Positions 3,276 to 17,078 of a DNA stretch of 21,819 nucleotides are shown piece after piece. A model generated the notes under the pieces. The model saw nothing but the letters and a program-made list of their open reading frames with translations. It ran no database searches and was not told the DNA's origin. Positions within the stretch are counted from its first letter, which is position 1, and each line of letters begins with the position of its first letter. The position numbers and the translations under genes were made by a program. Origin of the DNA: a virus; the IMG/VR virus record IMGVR_UViG_3300010370_006461, positions 1 to 21,819 of that record; one strand, written 5' to 3'.

Positions 3276-3288
3276 TTATCTCCTTAAG

Positions 3289-3361
3289 TGCCCCTAGTTG
3301 GATTTGAACCAACGCTTTTACGATTTTAAGTCGCATGCCTCTACCGCTGGGCTATAGGGGC
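3289..3361 (-). tRNA. tRNA-Leu(UAA) with a short variable loop
   Basis: A 73-nt cloverleaf: acceptor GCCCCTA/TAGGGGC, discriminator A, D arm with a 13-22 mismatch, anticodon arm TGCGA-CTTAAAA-TCGTA, T arm GTTGG-TTCAAAT-CCAAC. The anticodon UAA reads UUA (and UUG), which is leucine. The variable region is only five nt (AAAGC), whereas bacterial tRNA-Leu normally carries a long variable arm. CCA is not encoded. The GMD ribosome-binding site begins within ten nt of its 3' end. Confidence 0.85.
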
Positions 3362-3362
3362 G

Positions 3363-3436
3363 CATCCCTAGCAGGATTTGAACCTGCGACAACCTGCTTA
3401 GAAGGCAGGTGCTCTATCCTTCTGAGCTATAGGGAC
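3363..3436 (-). tRNA. tRNA-Arg(UCU)
   Basis: A 74-nt cloverleaf with anticodon loop CTTCTAA (anticodon UCU, codon AGA), anticodon stem CCTGC/GCAGG, T arm GCAGG-TTCAAAT-CCTGC, discriminator G. The acceptor stem GTCCCTA/TAGGGAT ends in a G1-U72 wobble. CCA is not encoded, and only one nt separates it from tRNA-Leu. Confidence 0.93.
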
Positions 3437-3441
3437 TAGAG

Positions 3442-3513
3442 AGCCCCCCGTCAGGATTGAACTGACGACCTTCCGCTTACAAGGCGGATGCTCTACCACT
3501 GAGCTAGAGAGGC
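3442..3513 (-). tRNA. tRNA-Thr(UGU)
   Basis: A 72-nt cloverleaf with anticodon loop CTTGTAA (anticodon UGU, codon ACA), anticodon stem TCCGC/GCGGA and T arm GTCAG-TTCAATC-CTGAC. The acceptor stem GCCTCTC/GGGGGGC contains two U-G wobbles. The discriminator is U and CCA is not encoded. Confidence 0.92.
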
Positions 3514-3517
3514 TTAG

Positions 3518-3591
3518 CGATCCATATCGGACTTGAACCGATGACCTCTACCGTGACAGGGTAGCGCTCTAACCAACTGAGCTAATGGACC
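3518..3591 (-). tRNA. tRNA-Asp(GUC)
   Basis: A 74-nt cloverleaf with anticodon loop CTGTCAC (anticodon GUC), stem CTACC/GGTAG, T arm ATCGG-TTCAAGT-CCGAT and acceptor GGTCCAT/ATGGATC. G73 is the usual Asp discriminator. First of four tRNAs in transcription order, starting 6 nt after the AhpD stop codon. Confidence 0.94.
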
Positions 3592-3597
3592 ACTATA

Positions 3598-4107
3598 TTA
3601 AGAATTTAAAATCTTAGCCAATGCATTTACTGTTGCAGCAATTCTTCCAATATCTCTTAATTGCTCTACAGTAAATCCTTCTTGCTTTAATGTTTCATAG
3701 TGTGCCTTCACACAAAAATGACATTTGCCAATAATTGAAGATGCTAGCGAGTATGCTTCAAAATTAGACTTTGTTGTTCCTCCGTGTGATGTTATAGCAT
3801 TCATTCTTAATTGTGCAGGCAACCCTTTAAGATTAGAATCGTCTGCCATTTCAATGTACGGATACCAGACATTATTCTGTGCCATGATAGCGCCTGCAGT
3901 CATTGCAGCATTTTTTTCTACTTCATTTGTAGAGCTTGCAGCAATGAAAGCAATTAACTTTCCGTTACCAGTAGCAAAAGAAGCTGCCAGGGCTAGGTGT
4001 GTTGCTAGCTCTGGGTCAACTGAACTGCGATTAATAACAGCGTCAAGATTTAATTTTATATCTTTAGCATACTCTGGTAAAGATTCTTTTAACTGTTCAA
4101 CCCACAT
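3598..4107 (-). CDS. ahpD: AhpD-like alkylhydroperoxidase (carboxymuconolactone decarboxylase family)
   Basis: A 169-aa all-helical AhpD-family protein; the M. tuberculosis enzyme has about 177 aa. The catalytic block is 'GKCHFCVKAHYETL' with C129, C132 and H136, and an upstream E117 matches the proton-relay Glu. The CxxC reads CHFC rather than the mycobacterial CSHC, so the internal His is shifted by one position. Known role: a thiol peroxidase that also reduces AhpC, taking electrons from lipoylated dihydrolipoamide acyltransferase and dihydrolipoamide dehydrogenase of the host. Its ATG overlaps the AhpC stop (TAATG) with GGAGAG upstream, so the two are coupled and probably form a relay. 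The residue comparison relies on recalled family knowledge. Confidence 0.87.
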   Translation of the reverse strand: MWVEQLKESLPEYAKDIKLNLDAVINRSSVDPELATHLALAASFATGNGKLIAFIAASSTNEVEKNAAMTAGAIMAQNNVWYPYIEMADDSNLKGLPAQLRMNAITSHGGTTKSNFEAYSLASSIIGKCHFCVKAHYETLKQEGFTVEQLRDIGRIAATVNALAKILNS

Positions 4108-4676
4108 TATAGAGTCTCTCCGCCTACTGTTCTATTGCAAGCGCAAAGTTCTCCTGTTTGAAGAGCATCAAGAATTCTTAAAGTTTCTTCTGGACTACGT
4201 CCAACATTAAGATTATTTACAGTGACATGCTGAATAATATTTTCTGGATCAACAATAAATGTAGCACGTAATGCTGCCCCAGACTCATAGGAAAACACTC
4301 CAAGCTGTTCTGCCAGCCCCTCTACTGTTTCATCCTCGCCATCATAATGATACCTCATAGTATCAGCAAACATCCAAGAATTTGTTTTCTTTAAATCCTC
4401 ATGTGCATTTCGCCATGCAATTTTACAAAATTCATTATCTGTTGAGCCTGTCATAAGAATTGCATCACGATCATTAAAATCATTTACTAATTTATCATAT
4501 GCAACAATTTCTGTTGGGCATACAAATGTAAAGTCTTTTGGATAAAAGACAATTACTTTCCATTTTCCTGAAAAAGATTTTTCATTAATTTCTTCGAATG
4601 CATCATCGCCAGAAAGTGCTCCTGGCTTAACACCTGTTACTGAAAATGGTTTTAGTTTATAACCAATTGTTTTCAT
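4107..4676 (-). CDS. ahpC: AhpC-type 2-Cys peroxiredoxin
   Basis: A 189-aa typical peroxiredoxin. The peroxidatic motif 'FYPKDFTFVCPTEI' places C53; the C-terminus 'GELCACNRTVGGETL' carries C178 and C180, the paired C-terminal cysteines characteristic of actinobacterial (M. tuberculosis-like) AhpC. R137 in 'ALRATFIVDP' is the conserved active-site Arg. Reaction: reduction of H2O2, alkyl hydroperoxides or peroxynitrite in the cytosol. The start is supported by AAGGAG five nt before the ATG. The 3' end is fused to ahpD by a one-nt stop/start overlap; tRNA-Asn lies just upstream. In a phage it is an auxiliary metabolic gene that could protect the cell or replication machinery from oxidative stress (inference). 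Confidence 0.93.
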   Translation of the reverse strand: MKTIGYKLKPFSVTGVKPGALSGDDAFEEINEKSFSGKWKVIVFYPKDFTFVCPTEIVAYDKLVNDFNDRDAILMTGSTDNEFCKIAWRNAHEDLKKTNSWMFADTMRYHYDGEDETVEGLAEQLGVFSYESGAALRATFIVDPENIIQHVTVNNLNVGRSPEETLRILDALQTGELCACNRTVGGETL

Positions 4677-4709
4677 TTTTCTCCTTATATATAAGTGGGC
4701 TTAATCCCG

Positions 4710-4782
4710 CTGGACCACCAGGGCTCGAACCTGGGACATCAGAGTTAACAGCTCTGCGCTCTGCCGACTGAGCTATGGTCCA
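4710..4782 (-). tRNA. tRNA-Asn(GUU)
   Basis: A 73-nt cloverleaf with perfect acceptor TGGACCA/TGGTCCA, anticodon loop CTGTTAA (anticodon GUU), stem CAGAG/CTCTG, T arm CCAGG-TTCGAGC-CCTGG and discriminator G as usual for Asn. CCA is not encoded. Its first ten nt are also the last codons and stop of the upstream SGNH-like gene. Confidence 0.94.
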
Positions 4783-5531
4783 AAAGATATAATTTTTTTG
4801 TTATCTATAAAATCATTTAGTATTTTATTATAATACTCTGGCAAGCAGTGATCATTATAAATATATTGTATTGGCTTTTTGTATTGCATTGAAGAATAAA
4901 TCCATGGGACTCCCAGGATATCAGATATATCTATTGGACTTTGTAAGCCATGACGTTTACACTTTTGCTCAAGCCGTTCACAAAATTCAATATGTGCAGA
5001 ATGTCTTACCTCAAATTCTAATCCTGGATCGGCAGAAAAAGTTTTCCATCTTGCACTTACTATTACTTCAAATTGTGGTATGGGTTTTATAAATATAATA
5101 TTTGAATTTTTAAAATTTTTTAAAACATTATTTACATAAGTCTCTACAACCTGCTTAGGATTTTTAAAATTATCTAAAGTTTTTATAGGTAAATAATTTT
5201 TTATATCTATGTACCCAAACCATGGCATTATAGTGTTACTACTTTTGTTCCAATCACTTGTATAGCCATACATGCTGTAATCAAAATTTAATGCTGATCT
5301 TCCTAAAAAAGCAGCAGTAGACATACTTTTGTCATCTACTGAAATTGTATGCAACTCTGATCTAAGGAATAGGTGCTCGCCATCTTGATCTTGCTTTTCC
5401 GTTCTTAAACTTTCAACTGTATGCTGAGTAAAATAATTTTGATCTTTATTGAGTCTATTAATTATATTATCAAATAATATATGTCCGAGCCTTAAAGCAT
5501 GAGAATCTCCTAATATATATACTTTTTGCAT
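4773..5531 (-). CDS. SGNH/GDSL-like hydrolase-related protein, copy 1
   Basis: A 252-aa protein with an N-terminal 'VYILGDSHALRLG' block; S10 fits the nucleophile of the GDSHA type seen in SGNH and OafA-like acetyl-transfer/esterase domains. 'GRSALNFDY' may be block II (Gly), 'FGYIDIKN' block III (Asn), and 'YNDHCLPEYY' near the C-terminus block V (His). Spacing in block V is not the canonical DxxH, so catalysis is uncertain. No signal peptide or membrane segment is visible, so it should be cytoplasmic. It is a clear paralogue of the next gene upstream (5586-6338). Possible role: acyl transfer or removal on the glycan made by the neighbouring sugar genes (inference). No SD is present; a strong promoter ends exactly six nt before the ATG, predicting a leaderless message. 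The last ten nt overlap tRNA-Asn. Confidence 0.6.
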   Translation of the reverse strand: MQKVYILGDSHALRLGHILFDNIINRLNKDQNYFTQHTVESLRTEKQDQDGEHLFLRSELHTISVDDKSMSTAAFLGRSALNFDYSMYGYTSDWNKSSNTIMPWFGYIDIKNYLPIKTLDNFKNPKQVVETYVNNVLKNFKNSNIIFIKPIPQFEVIVSARWKTFSADPGLEFEVRHSAHIEFCERLEQKCKRHGLQSPIDISDILGVPWIYSSMQYKKPIQYIYNDHCLPEYYNKILNDFIDNKKIISFGP

Positions 5532-5537
5532 TTTTAT

Positions 5538-5566
5538 ATTTTATCAAAATTAAATAATATAGTCAA
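5538..5566 (-). promoter_or_regulatory. Strong promoter predicting a leaderless mRNA for SGNH copy 1
   Basis: TTGACT (5561-5566), a 17-nt spacer and TAAAAT (5538-5543) with an upstream TG (extended -10, TGATAAAAT). Six nt then separate the -10 box from the ATG, so the predicted +1 is the A of the start codon. There is no SD. Confidence 0.68.
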
Positions 5567-5585
5567 TAGTAAGCTAATCAACCAA

Positions 5586-6338
5586 CTAATTCCATAATTT
5601 AGTTTTATCTATAATACTGTCCAAAATAATATCATAAAATTCTGATCTTAAATGATCATTATATAAATGTTTTATTGATTTATTATATTGCATATCCGTA
5701 GTAACCCATTCAATATTGAGTATATTGGCAATATCCATAGGGATTTCTAAACCATTATCTATACACTTATTTTTTAAAATTTCTGTAAACTCTAAGTGTG
5801 ATTCGTGCCTTTTCTCAAAATCTATGGCTTTATCAGATTTAAAACTAGCTTGGGCTATTATAATCTCAAATTGTGGTACTGGATTTATAAAAATAATTTT
5901 TGAATTTGGAAATCTTTTAACAGTATTTTCAAAATATATTTCAACAACTTCTTTAGCATCTTTATAATTTTTTAAAGTTTTATCTGGTATCCAGTTTTTT
6001 ATATCTATATAACCTAGCCACGGCATAACTATAGAATTATCTTTATTAAATTTCTTTAATATATCATGCGAATCATAATTATAATTTAATGCTGATCTTC
6101 CTGGAGTACTTAATATACTTAAACTAGAGTTATTATATTCTAAAGAAACCATGTCGCTATGTGTAGTTATATATTTTTTTTCATTGTTTTCTATTTTATG
6201 CACAAAACTTTTAGTATTCTTAACATTTACAATTGAGTATTCTTTTTCGCTAACACCAGTTTTTTTTAAAAAATTATTAAAAATTAATGCTGACATTTTA
6301 AGAGCATGAGAATCTCCGTATATATACACGTTATTCAT
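5586..6338 (-). CDS. SGNH/GDSL-like hydrolase-related protein, copy 2
   Basis: A 250-aa paralogue of the downstream gene. Shared blocks are 'VYIYGDSHALKM' (S10), 'GRSALNYNYD', 'VMPWLGYIDIKNW', 'IIFINPVPQFEIII', 'FEKRHESHLEFTE' and 'LYNDHLRSEFY'. The conserved region spans the whole length, so this looks like a tandem gene duplication that has since diverged rather than a domain repeat. The central 'NSKIIFINPVPQFE' strand is nearly unchanged between copies. Function is not established; the GDSH start suggests an SGNH-fold esterase or acyltransferase, with the same doubt about the catalytic Asp-His pair. Like copy 1, it has no SD and is preceded by an extended -10 six nt from the ATG. It lies 24 nt after a 2OG-Fe(II) oxygenase gene. 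Confidence 0.6.
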   Translation of the reverse strand: MNNVYIYGDSHALKMSALIFNNFLKKTGVSEKEYSIVNVKNTKSFVHKIENNEKKYITTHSDMVSLEYNNSSLSILSTPGRSALNYNYDSHDILKKFNKDNSIVMPWLGYIDIKNWIPDKTLKNYKDAKEVVEIYFENTVKRFPNSKIIFINPVPQFEIIIAQASFKSDKAIDFEKRHESHLEFTEILKNKCIDNGLEIPMDIANILNIEWVTTDMQYNKSIKHLYNDHLRSEFYDIILDSIIDKTKLWN

Positions 6339-6362: not shown

Positions 6363-7169
6363 TTATTTTGCTGTAATTTCAGACGGGTACAATGCTTTTG
6401 GTGGAAGAGTTTTAGTATTTTTATCATCAAGCTCTTTTTTCAAAGAATCTGATGGCTCCCATTTAAAATTTATAGGAGTTGCCCACTCGGCAACCCCAGC
6501 TTTCCATCTATCTTCGTTTTCTTTAGTTCCATAAATAGGGAAAGTGCCTGGATTTTTATCTACTGGTAAAACAAAATTAGAAAATGCATACCTTACCCCA
6601 GATGTTATTTCTTTTACTCCATGTGCATAATCATCATGGGCTCCATGAATTATAAGGTCTCCAGATTTTGGCTTTACAGATAACTCATTGCCTTCTTTAA
6701 AAGGTATATTATCTCCTACCCATGTTCCATCATTGCGAACATTTGGATAAAATACCTCCCCGCCTTCCCAGTCCCCGAAATAAACAATTGCTCCGTAATG
6801 CAAAACACAACAAGTATTCCATTTATCTTCTGCTGTAAGATCTGATTCCATAGCCTCTCCAGGACTATCAGAATGTATGAACATTTCGTCCCCAGCTCTT
6901 GTTGTAAGCATAAATATTTGAGGGTGTATGCAATATTCTGGTAATAATAGTTTATTGATTTCGCACCAAATGTCATATAGTTGCGGTATAGTTGGTGTCA
7001 TTTTATCATTATACCAGTCTATATAATGTCTTGGATCTTTTCCAAAATCAATCTGCTCCCAAGGCTTAACCTGGTCTAAAATATCTTTACAAACTTCTTC
7101 ACTAATAAAATTCCTATAAATAAATACTTTTTCTGATAATCTTTCTACATTCGGGTTATCGTAAAACAT
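6363..7169 (-). CDS. 2OG-Fe(II) oxygenase (prolyl 4-hydroxylase superfamily)
   Basis: A 268-aa protein with the double-stranded beta-helix iron triad: HSD in 'MFIHSDSPGEA' (H99, D101) and H183 in 'DDYAHGVKEITSGVRYAF', with R193 as the expected 2-oxoglutarate-binding Arg ten residues after the distal His. 'GGEVFYPN' and 'KPKSGDLIIH' are the usual strands between. Expected reaction: 2-oxoglutarate- and O2-dependent hydroxylation of a protein or small substrate; the substrate is unknown. Family members are frequent in marine phages. The start is supported by TAGGAG five nt before the ATG, and it has its own promoter region. It heads a group with two SGNH-like genes, so glycan or protein decoration is possible (inference). 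Confidence 0.83.
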   Translation of the reverse strand: MFYDNPNVERLSEKVFIYRNFISEEVCKDILDQVKPWEQIDFGKDPRHYIDWYNDKMTPTIPQLYDIWCEINKLLLPEYCIHPQIFMLTTRAGDEMFIHSDSPGEAMESDLTAEDKWNTCCVLHYGAIVYFGDWEGGEVFYPNVRNDGTWVGDNIPFKEGNELSVKPKSGDLIIHGAHDDYAHGVKEITSGVRYAFSNFVLPVDKNPGTFPIYGTKENEDRWKAGVAEWATPINFKWEPSDSLKKELDDKNTKTLPPKALYPSEITAK

Positions 7170-7247: not shown

Positions 7248-7778
7248 TTATATAGAATCTCGATTCCTAAGCACGGTATCCTTATTGGCCTTTAATACAT
7301 TATATATTACATTTAAATAATCTTTTGAAACCAAGCCAAGGAGGGGGTTTTGTTTTAAAAATATGGGCTCATTTTCTATTTTAGACTGTATGTCAGGCAT
7401 ATATTTATCCAGATCCATGCCTCTTTCACAAAACTCCATAAATACATCATAAAAGAATTCATTAAATTCATGAAAAAATTCTAAATGTTTTATAAAAGCC
7501 CACATTAAATCTACTGATTCTTTAGAATCTACATTTATTTTATTAACTACAGCATTGTAAAACATTTCTTCAAGTATAAAAGATTCTTTTAGCATTTCTT
7601 TTATTTCTTTTTTAGATGCTGACTTCATTCTATCCCCAAAAACCCTACACCAATAATTTTCAGGATACTTTTTGTATAATTCTTGCCAAAAATAAACCCT
7701 GGCATTAAATCCGTTGTATTGTATATGCATTTCATTACTTATTTTTGGTAATAATAAATTATCATCGTATTTATTCAT
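7248..7778 (-). CDS. Helical protein of unknown function, homologous to the product of 8712-9110
   Basis: A 176-aa protein from the chosen ATG. I do not recognise the family. It is predicted to be mostly helical and carries the segment 'MKSASKKEIKEMLKESFILE ...' followed by 'AFIKHLEFFHEF'. The same pattern ('MKTSSKEEYKKMLKQGYELQ' and 'DFIKHIEWFFKI') occurs in the smaller protein two genes upstream, so they are paralogues. The C-terminal 40 or so residues are unique to this copy. A GTG six nt further upstream is possible, but AGGTGA is correctly spaced for ATG at 7778. The start overlaps the end of the oxidoreductase gene by 8 nt, implying co-translation. The two paralogues bracket that enzyme, so they may be its partners (inference). 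Confidence 0.6.
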   Translation of the reverse strand: MNKYDDNLLLPKISNEMHIQYNGFNARVYFWQELYKKYPENYWCRVFGDRMKSASKKEIKEMLKESFILEEMFYNAVVNKINVDSKESVDLMWAFIKHLEFFHEFNEFFYDVFMEFCERGMDLDKYMPDIQSKIENEPIFLKQNPLLGLVSKDYLNVIYNVLKANKDTVLRNRDSI

Positions 7779-8715
7779 AATCACCTATCTCGTTTTTATT
7801 TATTAAAACAGATTTTCCAATGGAATTTCTATTTCTAACATTGAAATGAACTGTTTTACAATCTTCTAAATTAAACTTTTTAGCAAGTTTAATTTTAATT
7901 TTATTTGATAAAATTAAATTAAATATTTCATTTAAATCATGATTAAATTTATTTAAATTCTCTAAACTTTTTTTAACCCAGAACCCAGAAATTGTTTTAG
8001 AATCTTTTACTAGATCTAAAATATTTAAACTTGGGTATTTTTCTCTATAAGATGAACCATAAGCACAAATAATTCCTCCAGGTTTTAGCATTCTGTAATA
8101 ATTTAAAAATCTTTGTCCTCCATAAGAATCAATTATTATACTTGGACTTATATCTTTATATTTTTTTAAATCTGATTCATCTATTAATATATCAGCTCCT
8201 AAACTTTTAACAAAATTAATTTTTTCTTCTCCAGATGTTACAGCTGCAACCGTAGCTCCTATATTTTTACACATCTGTATAAGAAACATGCTAACTACGC
8301 TTGATGCTGCATTTATTAAAACCAAATCATTACTTTTTACTTTACAAACATCATTTACAATATTGTATGCTGTCATTCCTTGAGATATACAAGCAAGAGC
8401 TTCTTCTTCTAGTATGCCTTCTGGGATTTCAAACATATGGTTTTTATTTACTAATATTTTTTCTGCATAAGCCCCGCTTGATGTTATACATACAAATTTT
8501 TTATTATTATAAGAAATTGTAGACGTACCACCTGGTATTATTGGTGGTAGTTTTTGTACAAGATATGTGTTTTCAGTTTGATGAGTGTCAGAGTAATTAA
8601 CTCCAATCATTCTTGTGCTAGCAATTATATGCCCCTCTATAAGCTCAGGTTCTTGTACATCACATATTTCAATTGAATTTTGGTCTCCAAATTTTTTTAC
8701 CACTGCAGCTTTCAA
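7771..8715 (-). CDS. MDR-superfamily quinone oxidoreductase/enoyl reductase-like protein
   Basis: A 314-aa medium-chain dehydrogenase/reductase without the structural zinc loop, like quinone oxidoreductase (QOR) and MECR-type enoyl reductases. Recognisable parts are the N-terminal GroES-like domain ('MKAAVVKKFGD', 'MIGVNYSDTHQTENTY'), 'EEEALACISQGMTAYNIV', then the Rossmann domain with 'GATVAAVTSGEEKINFVKSLGAD' and 'IIIDSYGGQ', and 'LKPGGIICAYGSS'. The nucleotide-binding loop, usually AAGGVG, reads 'NAASSVVSMFLIQ': all three glycines are gone. NADPH binding may therefore be altered or lost. The start codon is TTG, 7 nt after AGGAGG, with a TTGA overlap with the preceding stop. Substrate unknown. 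Confidence 0.78.
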   Translation of the reverse strand: MKAAVVKKFGDQNSIEICDVQEPELIEGHIIASTRMIGVNYSDTHQTENTYLVQKLPPIIPGGTSTISYNNKKFVCITSSGAYAEKILVNKNHMFEIPEGILEEEALACISQGMTAYNIVNDVCKVKSNDLVLINAASSVVSMFLIQMCKNIGATVAAVTSGEEKINFVKSLGADILIDESDLKKYKDISPSIIIDSYGGQRFLNYYRMLKPGGIICAYGSSYREKYPSLNILDLVKDSKTISGFWVKKSLENLNKFNHDLNEIFNLILSNKIKIKLAKKFNLEDCKTVHFNVRNRNSIGKSVLINKNEIGDYE

Positions 8716-9110
8716 TCTACTACCTCCTTTTTGTAGTTTAGTAATAAATTTAAAAGAAATTCAGAATATTCTTTATTTACTATTAAAAATTGATCCCTAT
8801 GAGGCTGACACAATTGTATTAATTCATTATAAGAAGATGCGTCTATTTTAAAAAACCATTCAATATGTTTTATAAAATCAAAAAATAATAACCTTGCCTC
8901 ATTAGAATGTATATCTAATTTGGATAATACTGCCTCATCAAATTTATTTTGCAATTCATAACCCTGCTTTAGCATTTTTTTGTATTCTTCCTTAGAAGAA
9001 GTTTTCATTTTTTCAGTGGCTTTTATTACCCAAGGGTTGTCTGGAAAAAAATTTACTATATTCTGAAACAAAAATCTTCTATTTTCAAAAATCTTATCTT
9101 CAAAATTCAT
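8712..9110 (-). CDS. Helical protein of unknown function, homologous to the product of 7248-7778
   Basis: A 132-aa, probably helical protein with no motif I can name. Residues around 35-90 ('MKTSSKEEYKKMLKQGYELQ', 'DFIKHIEWFFKI') match the equivalent part of the 176-aa protein on the other side of the oxidoreductase gene. GAGG about six nt before the ATG supports the start. Its beginning overlaps the preceding gene by 11 nt, and its TGA overlaps the TTG start of the oxidoreductase (TTGA), so the three genes look translationally linked. Confidence 0.58.
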   Translation of the reverse strand: MNFEDKIFENRRFLFQNIVNFFPDNPWVIKATEKMKTSSKEEYKKMLKQGYELQNKFDEAVLSKLDIHSNEARLLFFDFIKHIEWFFKIDASSYNELIQLCQPHRDQFLIVNKEYSEFLLNLLLNYKKEVVD

Positions 9111-9414
9111 CTTGTTCCTCTATAGGAATGATGCCCTTATTTTTAGCTATTTGGTATCCCTCTTTTGTAAAATGCATTGTTGCTTCCAAATTTTCATCAT
9201 ATTCAACATTCATTAATCCTTCTTCAAATAACTCTGTAAGATTATGGTCAACGTATTCCATATGAGCTTCCCATAGTTCTGGTGCTAAATCTTTAGTAAC
9301 CGCTTCATTTAATTCAAAAATAGCTTCGCCTTCTTCGTTATAGCCAGCGAGCCTTATTGCACCTATCTCTATATAGTATTGTATTTGTCTTAGCGCTTCT
9401 TCTTCGTCCACCAT
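9100..9414 (-). CDS. Acidic phage protein of unknown function, possibly winged-helix-like
   Basis: A 104-aa acidic protein, 'MVDEEEALRQIQYYIEIGAI...'. Alternating helices followed by a beta-hairpin and 'MHFTKEGYQIAKN' suggest a winged-helix-like fold, but I do not recognise the family. AAAGGAG lies directly before the ATG with only one or two nt spacing; the next codon, GTG, would be better spaced, so initiation could be at either. The SD begins within a few nt of the 3' end of the CAU tRNA gene. It sits just downstream of the packaging genes, suggesting a packaging or morphogenesis role (weak inference). Confidence 0.6.
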   Translation of the reverse strand: MVDEEEALRQIQYYIEIGAIRLAGYNEEGEAIFELNEAVTKDLAPELWEAHMEYVDHNLTELFEEGLMNVEYDENLEATMHFTKEGYQIAKNKGIIPIEEQDEF

Positions 9415-9423
9415 TCTCCTTTG

Positions 9424-9497
9424 TGCACCAGGTAGGACTTGAACCTACGACTACCCGATTATGAGTCGGGGGCTCTAACCAACTAAGCTACTGGTGC
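9424..9497 (-). tRNA. tRNA with CAU anticodon (elongator Met or Ile2)
   Basis: A 74-nt cloverleaf: acceptor GCACCAG/CTGGTGC, D arm GCTT...GAGC, anticodon loop CTCATAA (CAU), stem CCCGA/TCGGG, T arm GTAGG-TTCAAGT-CCTAC, discriminator A. G1-C72 pairing excludes an initiator tRNA. C4-G69 and C5-G68, plus similarity of the anticodon and T arms to tRNA-Ile2, make a TilS-modified tRNA-Ile(k2CAU) possible; elongator Met is the alternative. CCA is not encoded. Confidence 0.9.
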
Positions 9498-15981: not shown

Positions 15982-16273
15982 CTTTATTGTTCCTAACTAA
16001 ATCTTCTAACATAGACCATTCTAGTACAGCTAGTCTTACTTTATTTTTATCTCCAAGTATTAATTTTAGCAAAGGGTGCCTACTTCTGTCAACCCTAAAT
16101 GTATCAGTACATATTTTAGACCACATATCTTCTGATACAGCAATTGATTTTAATGACTCTTTATAATCTACTACAAAAATATCCCATAGGGCATCTCCTT
16201 TTTGATAGTCACCCCGACCACTATTTTTTTGCTGTTTGGCTCCATCTCTTTTAGCCTCTGACCTTTCAGACAT
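15974..16273 (-). CDS. Small PD-(D/E)XK nuclease / resolvase-like protein
   Basis: 99 aa from ATG 16273, preferred because AGGTGA is correctly spaced; a GTG nine nt upstream is the other option. The N-terminus is basic and holds 'KNSGRGDYQKGDALWDIFVV' and then 'DYKES': D27 and D36-x-K38 fit a minimal PD-(D/E)XK site. The rest ('KSIAVSEDMWSKI', 'PLLKLILGDKNKVRLAVLEW') has the strand-helix layout of small phage resolvase-like or RecU-type nucleases. Likely a DNA nuclease in recombination or repair; substrate unknown. Overlaps the preceding oxygenase gene by 8 nt. Confidence 0.65.
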   Translation of the reverse strand: MSERSEAKRDGAKQQKNSGRGDYQKGDALWDIFVVDYKESLKSIAVSEDMWSKICTDTFRVDRSRHPLLKLILGDKNKVRLAVLEWSMLEDLVRNNKDV

Positions 16274-17078
16274 TACTATCACCTACTGGGATCTCGTTAT
16301 CATAAACTTTGATTGTTTGTAAATTATTTACAATATAATCATTTTCATTTTCTAATAATTTAATATGATCATTATTTAAATTATTATCTACATTGTCCAA
16401 GTCACAAGAAACAAAAAGTCTACAAAAATACCTATCATTGTTGTAAAATTTTTTTACAGCATGATAAAAAGGAGAATTAGAAGGCATCACGACTGCATCT
16501 CCCGCATTTGGTTTATACTTATATAATAAATTTTTATCTGAACTATACATACAAATTTCACCATCTTCATAATTATCATTTAGATAAATATTTATTGTTA
16601 CTATATTTTTTTGCCTATCTAAATTTTTAAAAGGATATTCATCAACATGATATTGTAAAAATAAATTATTTTCTGAGTCTTTATACTTATATTTTACTTT
16701 TTCATATTCATATTTAAAAAAATCTATTTCATATTGATTTTTATATTTTTCTATTTTATCCCAATTAATAATAAAACTTGGCCATACTCCTTTATCTTTT
16801 TCAAAATCTTTAAAATAATCATATATAACATACTCAAATGATTTAATTAAGTTTGAAATAATATTAAACTCATACGAGTTATCACTAAAAATTTTATCTT
16901 TTTTATCTATATACGCAGAAGTCCTAAAGCCTTGATCATACCATTCAGACCAATCTTTAAAAAAATATTTATTTGAATTTGAATTTAATAAATCAATGAT
17001 TTCTTTATTCTGCCCAAAAATATTTTTATATATTGATATTTGAGGTGCAACTATAATTTTACTATGATTGCTATTCAT
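16266..17078 (-). CDS. 2OG-Fe(II) oxygenase, second family member
   Basis: A 270-aa protein with the iron triad H144-x-D146 ('FLQYHVDEYPF') and H206 ('NSPFYHAVKKFY'), R220 ('RYFCRLFVSCDL') for 2-oxoglutarate, and 'NIVTINIYLNDNYEDGEICM' plus 'PNAGDAVVMPS' between. The N-terminal 130 residues are Lys/Tyr-rich and unlike the other oxygenase in this window, so the two are not recent duplicates. The gene sits inside the replication/recombination block, between a zinc-ribbon protein and a nuclease, where its role is unclear. Candidates: modification of a protein, nucleobase or host target. Its ATG overlaps the previous stop (TAATG), and its base composition looks even more AT-rich than that of the adjacent genes. 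Confidence 0.8.
   Translation of the reverse strand: MNSNHSKIIVAPQISIYKNIFGQNKEIIDLLNSNSNKYFFKDWSEWYDQGFRTSAYIDKKDKIFSDNSYEFNIISNLIKSFEYVIYDYFKDFEKDKGVWPSFIINWDKIEKYKNQYEIDFFKYEYEKVKYKYKDSENNLFLQYHVDEYPFKNLDRQKNIVTINIYLNDNYEDGEICMYSSDKNLLYKYKPNAGDAVVMPSNSPFYHAVKKFYNNDRYFCRLFVSCDLDNVDNNLNNDHIKLLENENDYIVNNLQTIKVYDNEIPVGDSNV

Follow-up and report, generated by a model that had tools for sequence, protein, structure and literature searches.

A phage-borne protein of predicted TipAS fold and its constant partner, a quinone-reductase-like enzyme

TipAS and AlbA belong to the bacterial proteins that trap drugs, and both are described as neutralising drugs by enclosing them (PMC7762955; PMC6078987). 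TipAS (PF07739; TipA of Streptomyces lividans, PDB 1NY9 and 2MBZ) can also occur as a short protein on its own. AlbA, the albicidin-trapping protein of Klebsiella oxytoca (PDB 6ET8 and 8RKY), holds two TipAS-type units in one chain; single units are reported to bind albicidin with micromolar affinity and the tandem with low nanomolar affinity (PMC6078987). Searches of the open-access literature, judged by title and start of abstract, yielded no paper on a phage-encoded TipAS-fold protein or on a TipAS-reductase pairing, and searches on phage quinone oxidoreductases yielded none on the pair described below.

The DNA analysed here, referred to as the window, is a whole virus record of 21,819 bases and is probably a fragment. 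The three overlapping minus-strand genes at 7248-9110 that had been reported at the outset are confirmed, and the overlapping run extends to GP104, thus comprising four genes and not three (Table 1). The overlaps amount to 11 bases between GP104 and A132, 4 bases between A132 and MDR and 8 bases between MDR and B176. An open frame of the observed length is expected by chance in base-shuffled sequence with p of ~1e-6 to 1e-14 per gene. B176 is counted from the ATG at 7778, which gives 176 aa; the open reading frame as called by program begins 6 bases upstream at a GTG. The 2OG-oxygenase-like label of OG2 derives from Pfam 2OG-FeII_Oxy_3 (0.014, a weak match) and PHROG 61 (9.9e-7).

Table 1. Positions of the genes and sequence elements discussed in the text.
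Feature	Position	Strand	Basis or remark
GP104, 104-aa protein	9100..9414	-	Fixed gene upstream of the variable slot; overlaps A132
A132, predicted stand-alone TipAS-fold helical protein, ligand-binding-type	8712..9110	-	Pfam PF07739, AlphaFold model, VIA
AAAGGAGG, Shine-Dalgarno-like, inside A132	8723..8730	-	Read directly; 8-15 bases upstream of the MDR TTG
MDR, quinone-oxidoreductase-like, 314 aa, TTG start	7771..8715	-	Pfam ADH_zinc_N
Altered NAD(P)H loop AASSVVS, MDR residues 136-142	8290..8310	-	G142 replaced by S
B176, second predicted TipAS-fold protein, separate B-type lineage	7248..7778	-	Profile-profile comparison, AlphaFold model, VIA
OG2, 2OG-Fe(II)-oxygenase-like	6363..7169	-	Weak Pfam 2OG-FeII_Oxy_3, PHROG 61

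A132 and B176 align at 32% identity over 99 aa in a single BLASTP comparison (4e-16). The paralogy claimed in the preliminary description withstood the profile-profile comparison that had been set as its refutation test (A132 family against B176, probability 99, E 2.5e-18), and at the level of sequence the two proteins are true paralogues. The accompanying statement that they belong to no known family has to be given up, both being of TipAS fold by PF07739 for the A-type and by VIA comparison of the two models. Pfam TipAS matches 12/12 A-type members scanned at E<=1, with a best value of 1.3e-5; A132 of the window scores 23.3 bits, just under the gathering cut-off of 23.8, and a relative (G009, in L012) exceeds it with 25.7 bits. 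The Pfam search of B176 gave no TipAS match by sequence. Structure prediction of each protein singly, which had been suggested as a check, yielded models that both pick AlbA/TipAS first, AlbA being the best structural match for each. The A132 model (pLDDT 78.5, pTM 0.74, 13-row alignment) places AlbA/TipAS entries at VIA ranks 1-10 against the PDB, with Z of 8.2-10.1 and rmsd of 2.8-4.1 over 90-131 residues, followed by myoglobin at Z 4.8; Z below ~13 can mean little for helical bundles and a Z of ~10 is not decisive alone. Similarly, the B176 model (pLDDT 78.5; a different first row, with an alignment overlapping that of A132) places them at ranks 1-6, with Z of 6.4-7.6 over 100-130 residues and the next entry at 3.0. 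Foldseek ranked TipAS 2MBZ first for A132 at a poor E of 0.37, and its best TipAS match for B176 was likewise poor (0.49). The TipAS fold is assigned to both helical proteins, very probably correctly, because of the gap to unrelated entries, the coverage and the agreement with the independent sequence match.

Comparison with TipAS domains of host-type genomes by hhalign was positive but weak for the A-type profile (E 2.2e-4, probability 45) and weaker for the B-type profile (E 0.014, probability 3); controls with an unrelated gene were null (E 0.8 and 0.42). A132 resembles TipAS in fold and in the helix pattern around the W-F motif, at 10-12% identity in structural alignment, and differs from it in being phage-encoded and tied to an MDR gene, in having no helix-turn-helix form and in carrying Ile or Val for the reactive cysteine. 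The 132 residues of A132 are all spanned by the TipAS match of its model, and no helix-turn-helix family exceeded its cut-off. In the hhalign register Ile89 lies opposite the cysteine of the TipAS W-F-Y-D-C motif, presumably the reactive C207, and Ile or Val occupies this position across the A132 family. Covalent TipAS-like capture is therefore not expected. Covalent thiopeptide capture was considered as a function, but the cysteine position is not kept, and the invariant C101 aligns at a different place. Searches of PDB sequences with the A-type profile, the combined A/B profile and the single protein retrieved no TipAS chain, NCBIfam gave no match over cut-off for the helical proteins, tblastn of phage records with A132 and B176 gave no significant matches, and no cellular relative turned up when genomes were scanned with the A132 family. 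Assignment to toxin-antitoxin or defence systems was also discarded, PADLOC returning only one weak AbiEi match (0.014) and Pfam a RelB-like match to B176 at 0.31.

MDR scores 59.9 bits against Pfam ADH_zinc_N, over the cut-off of 31.8, and on this match is a genuine member of the medium-chain dehydrogenase/reductase superfamily, as first described. Its nearest solved structures are quinone oxidoreductases. NADPH:quinone oxidoreductases (PIG3 TIGR02824, 1QOR) are similar to it over the full length, although the score against NCBIfam PIG3 TIGR02824 is 113.2 bits, far below the cut-off of 296.8, and the phage enzymes differ in a shortened catalytic domain and in the cofactor loop, which changes from AAAGGVG to GASSAVG-like sequences in the relatives and to AASSVVS in the window. 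The motif AxxGxxG, which characterises the cofactor loop of the quinone oxidoreductase type, is absent from the latter. The closest cellular sequences found, MDRs of freshwater Nanopelagicales (~33%), share the QTENSYL segment with the phage enzyme but keep the canonical AAAGGVG loop, and a long branch sets the phage clade apart from them. The abnormality of the loop, reported early on, is thus confirmed, and all three of its glycines are indeed missing from the window; the combined loss is nevertheless no special event of this phage, since the two middle glycines are already gone from 11/14 phage relatives. Among 67 cellular homologues the loop reads AAAGGVG or AGAGGVG. Residue 136 is G in all 14 phage relatives and A in the window, as in the cellular homologues; residue 139 is S in 11 relatives and G in 3 (S in the window); and residue 140 is A in 11, T in 2 and G in 1 (V in the window). 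Residue 142 is G in 81/81 homologues (14/14 phage, 67/67 cellular) and S in the window, so that G142S is the only glycine loss in the loop unique to the window. Neither T115 nor K165 varies, in the window or in any of the 81 homologues.

A scan with A132 retrieved 14 contigs, and a scan seeded with the MDR alignment retrieved the same 14; viral-contig scans with B176 alone and with MDR alone gave no matches. The MDR gene begins at the A132 stop codon in 14/14 contigs. Another 16 relatives, searched over their whole records, gave neither an A-type gene nor MDR; 4 of them have B-type genes only and 12 have none of these. Because A132 and MDR adjoin in 14/14 and MDR is absent from 16/16 relatives lacking A132, the conserved unit is the A132-MDR pair and not a trio. 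The circumstance named in advance as telling against a linked system, relatives with a normal glycine loop and without linkage to the helical proteins, thus applies in part: the last loop glycine is present in the relatives, but without exception the enzyme is linked to one helical protein. GP104 lies upstream of A132 in 14/14 relatives and upstream of the B-type gene in 4/4 loci. The latter are found in four contigs without MDR (L112-L115, three of them near-identical) in the order GP104-B-OG2, the OG2-like gene being 67-71% identical. In L115 the order is GP104-B-C-OG2, a C-type third paralogue (4791-5345, 184 aa, 27% to B176) standing between B and the 2OG-oxygenase gene, all overlapping. 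When 11 relatives were searched with the combined A/B profile each had one copy; the window has two. The window therefore joins GP104-A132-MDR to B176-OG2 and so combines two cassettes, each of which usually has GP104 in front of it. TipAS-type genes lying close together, A132 and B176 in the window and the adjacent B and C in L115, recall the tandem units of AlbA, although the phage units are separate genes and most relatives have one copy.

The large terminase subunit (TerL) encoded in the window has its closest counterparts in ~128 kb Streptomyces phages such as Gilson (64%), and its identity to the relatives is an ordinary 77-88%. WhiB, described as a mark of actinophages (PMC10202952), occurs in 6/9 related records searched, the window itself being without it. 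The nearest cellular MDR sequences, found in a scan that preselects by two short peptides, are nearly all actinobacterial and mostly of freshwater Nanopelagicales. From the actinophage-like TerL, WhiB in related records and the actinobacterial cellular MDRs we infer a freshwater actinobacterium as host, and the virus probably infects actinobacteria. The G+C content, 32% in the window against 44-50% in five host-type loci, is of no help here. Of 12 host-type genomes searched, 7 encode a TipAS domain, in three cases within a short open frame of ~120-130 aa; these freshwater actinobacterial proteins stand alone, with no helix-turn-helix domain (L203 1489-1851, L205 1489-1857 and L206 1492-1881).

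Taken together, the identity of the parts is well supported: a phage-borne TipAS-fold protein is invariably accompanied by a quinone-reductase-like enzyme, and the window has a variant of this pair. This partnership suggests that the viruses capture, and perhaps chemically change, a small molecule in the host cell. The function tentatively favoured is that of accessory cargo of freshwater actinophages, in which the TipAS-fold protein would bind a small molecule and the reductase-like enzyme would reduce one. The genes occupy a variable slot behind the terminase gene. A132 would enclose a hydrophobic small molecule, as TipAS and AlbA do, and capture would be non-covalent because the position of the thiopeptide-reacting cysteine holds Ile or Val. 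MDR would use NAD(P)H to reduce a compound resembling an enone or quinone, which could be the captured ligand itself or something related to it. B176 is a second TipAS-fold protein, drawn from the 2OG-oxygenase linkage and now lying directly behind the pair, and with two such proteins the binding capacity may be doubled in this phage. If actinobacterial phages do carry small-molecule traps, they would be countering chemical defence, a form of immunity described for metabolites of Streptomyces (PMC13250531), at the level of proteins, and A132 would offer a defined bait for isolating the captured molecule. Two uses fit, the removal of a harmful or signalling compound and a biosynthetic role alongside the SGNH-like, carbamoyltransferase and oxygenase neighbours.

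The second use can be stated as a distinct explanation, in which the pair is part of a phage biosynthetic route for decorating some metabolite, such as a glycan or a nucleotide. The TipAS-fold protein would carry or present an intermediate that MDR reduces, with SGNH-like, carbamoyltransferase and 2OG-oxygenase steps. An SGNH-like gene of ~275-282 aa follows MDR in 14/14 loci, a label read from the motif G-C-S-E-T-E-G (Pfam gave no family for two). A carbamoyltransferase (PF16861, PF02543) comes next in the 12 contigs that extend far enough, in L001 after one more gene, and a carbamoyltransferase with the same Pfam domains is described as acting on 5-hydroxymethylcytosine (PMC8670742). The window moreover contains sugar-nucleotide and glycosyltransferase-like genes, labelled by reading of their translations. 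These neighbours, the glycosyltransferases included, suit a biosynthetic pathway as well as detoxification. In contrast, loci that lack A132 and MDR can have carbamoyltransferase and SGNH-like genes too, and the NodU/TobZ-like carbamoyltransferase (~475 aa), frequent in the relatives (L001-L014, L056), is absent from the window, which has the pair all the same. The pair is thus not tied to that route; the biosynthetic explanation, while a possibility, is on the unlikely side.

A narrower version of the favoured cargo function, itself rather improbable, would have the TipAS/AlbA-type proteins act as sponges that soak up a host anti-phage metabolite or signal, which the coupled reductase inactivates; the variant in the window would then have shifted from turnover to two-sponge capture.

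The state of the window enzyme could also mean that MDR is decaying, its function lost after divergence or transfer and the gene on its way out. MDR of the window is changed at 40/144 columns that are invariant in the 14 relatives and has lost 7/20 invariant glycines, one of them to a gap; the P-G-I-E-A-S segment is among the changes. When non-redundant relatives were left out in turn, 0-5% of invariant columns differed. In the tree the window enzyme joins the phage clade (100/100) on an end branch of 1.33, as against 0.01-0.27 for the phage relatives; within that clade, a grouping of the other nine was not rejected (p-AU 0.195). However, the frame is intact, the Shine-Dalgarno-like sequence and the overlaps are present, and A132, just as divergent (19/76 invariant columns changed), is intact too. 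Differences from eight relatives at codon positions 1, 2 and 3 are ~0.38, 0.25 and 0.57, a pattern that indicates purifying selection. Decay is thus unlikely. Because T115 and K165 are kept and constraint persists, the window MDR is taken to be altered and not defunct, and may bind NADPH. Within the favoured cargo function it would probably bind the cofactor more weakly or have a changed substrate, since the last loop glycine and other invariant residues are lost while constraint is kept.

Competition with the host's own TipAS/TipA-class proteins for their inducing ligand, by which the phage proteins would blunt the host drug response, finds a footing in the TipAS domains of host-type genomes noted above, but it leaves the constant MDR partner unexplained and is quite improbable. 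A dedicated three-gene system or complex, in which an enzyme or sensor would work with the two paralogues, as first proposed from the overlapping genes and the A132/B176 paralogy, is highly improbable because the three-gene order, far from being conserved in other phages, occurs only in the window, in 0/14 A132/MDR loci and 0/4 B-type loci.

Several further genes of the window lie outside the overlapping run. Six tRNA genes (Leu, Arg, Thr, Asp, Asn and Met) are situated at 3288-3591, 4709-4782 and 9423-9497, that for Met just upstream of GP104. A peroxiredoxin (AhpC/TSA) gene and an AhpD-like gene of the carboxymuconolactone decarboxylase family are arranged in tandem at 3598-4676, and this pair or its first gene was counted by eye in ~22/80 terminase-seeded loci. 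Two adjoining SGNH-like proteins of 252 and 250 aa, encoded at 4773-6338, match one L012 protein at 49% and 43%, and SGNH-like genes of other types occupy the same slot in the relatives. A 270-aa open reading frame at 16266-17078 is 2OG-oxygenase-like by reading and has multi-copy relatives in the related records.
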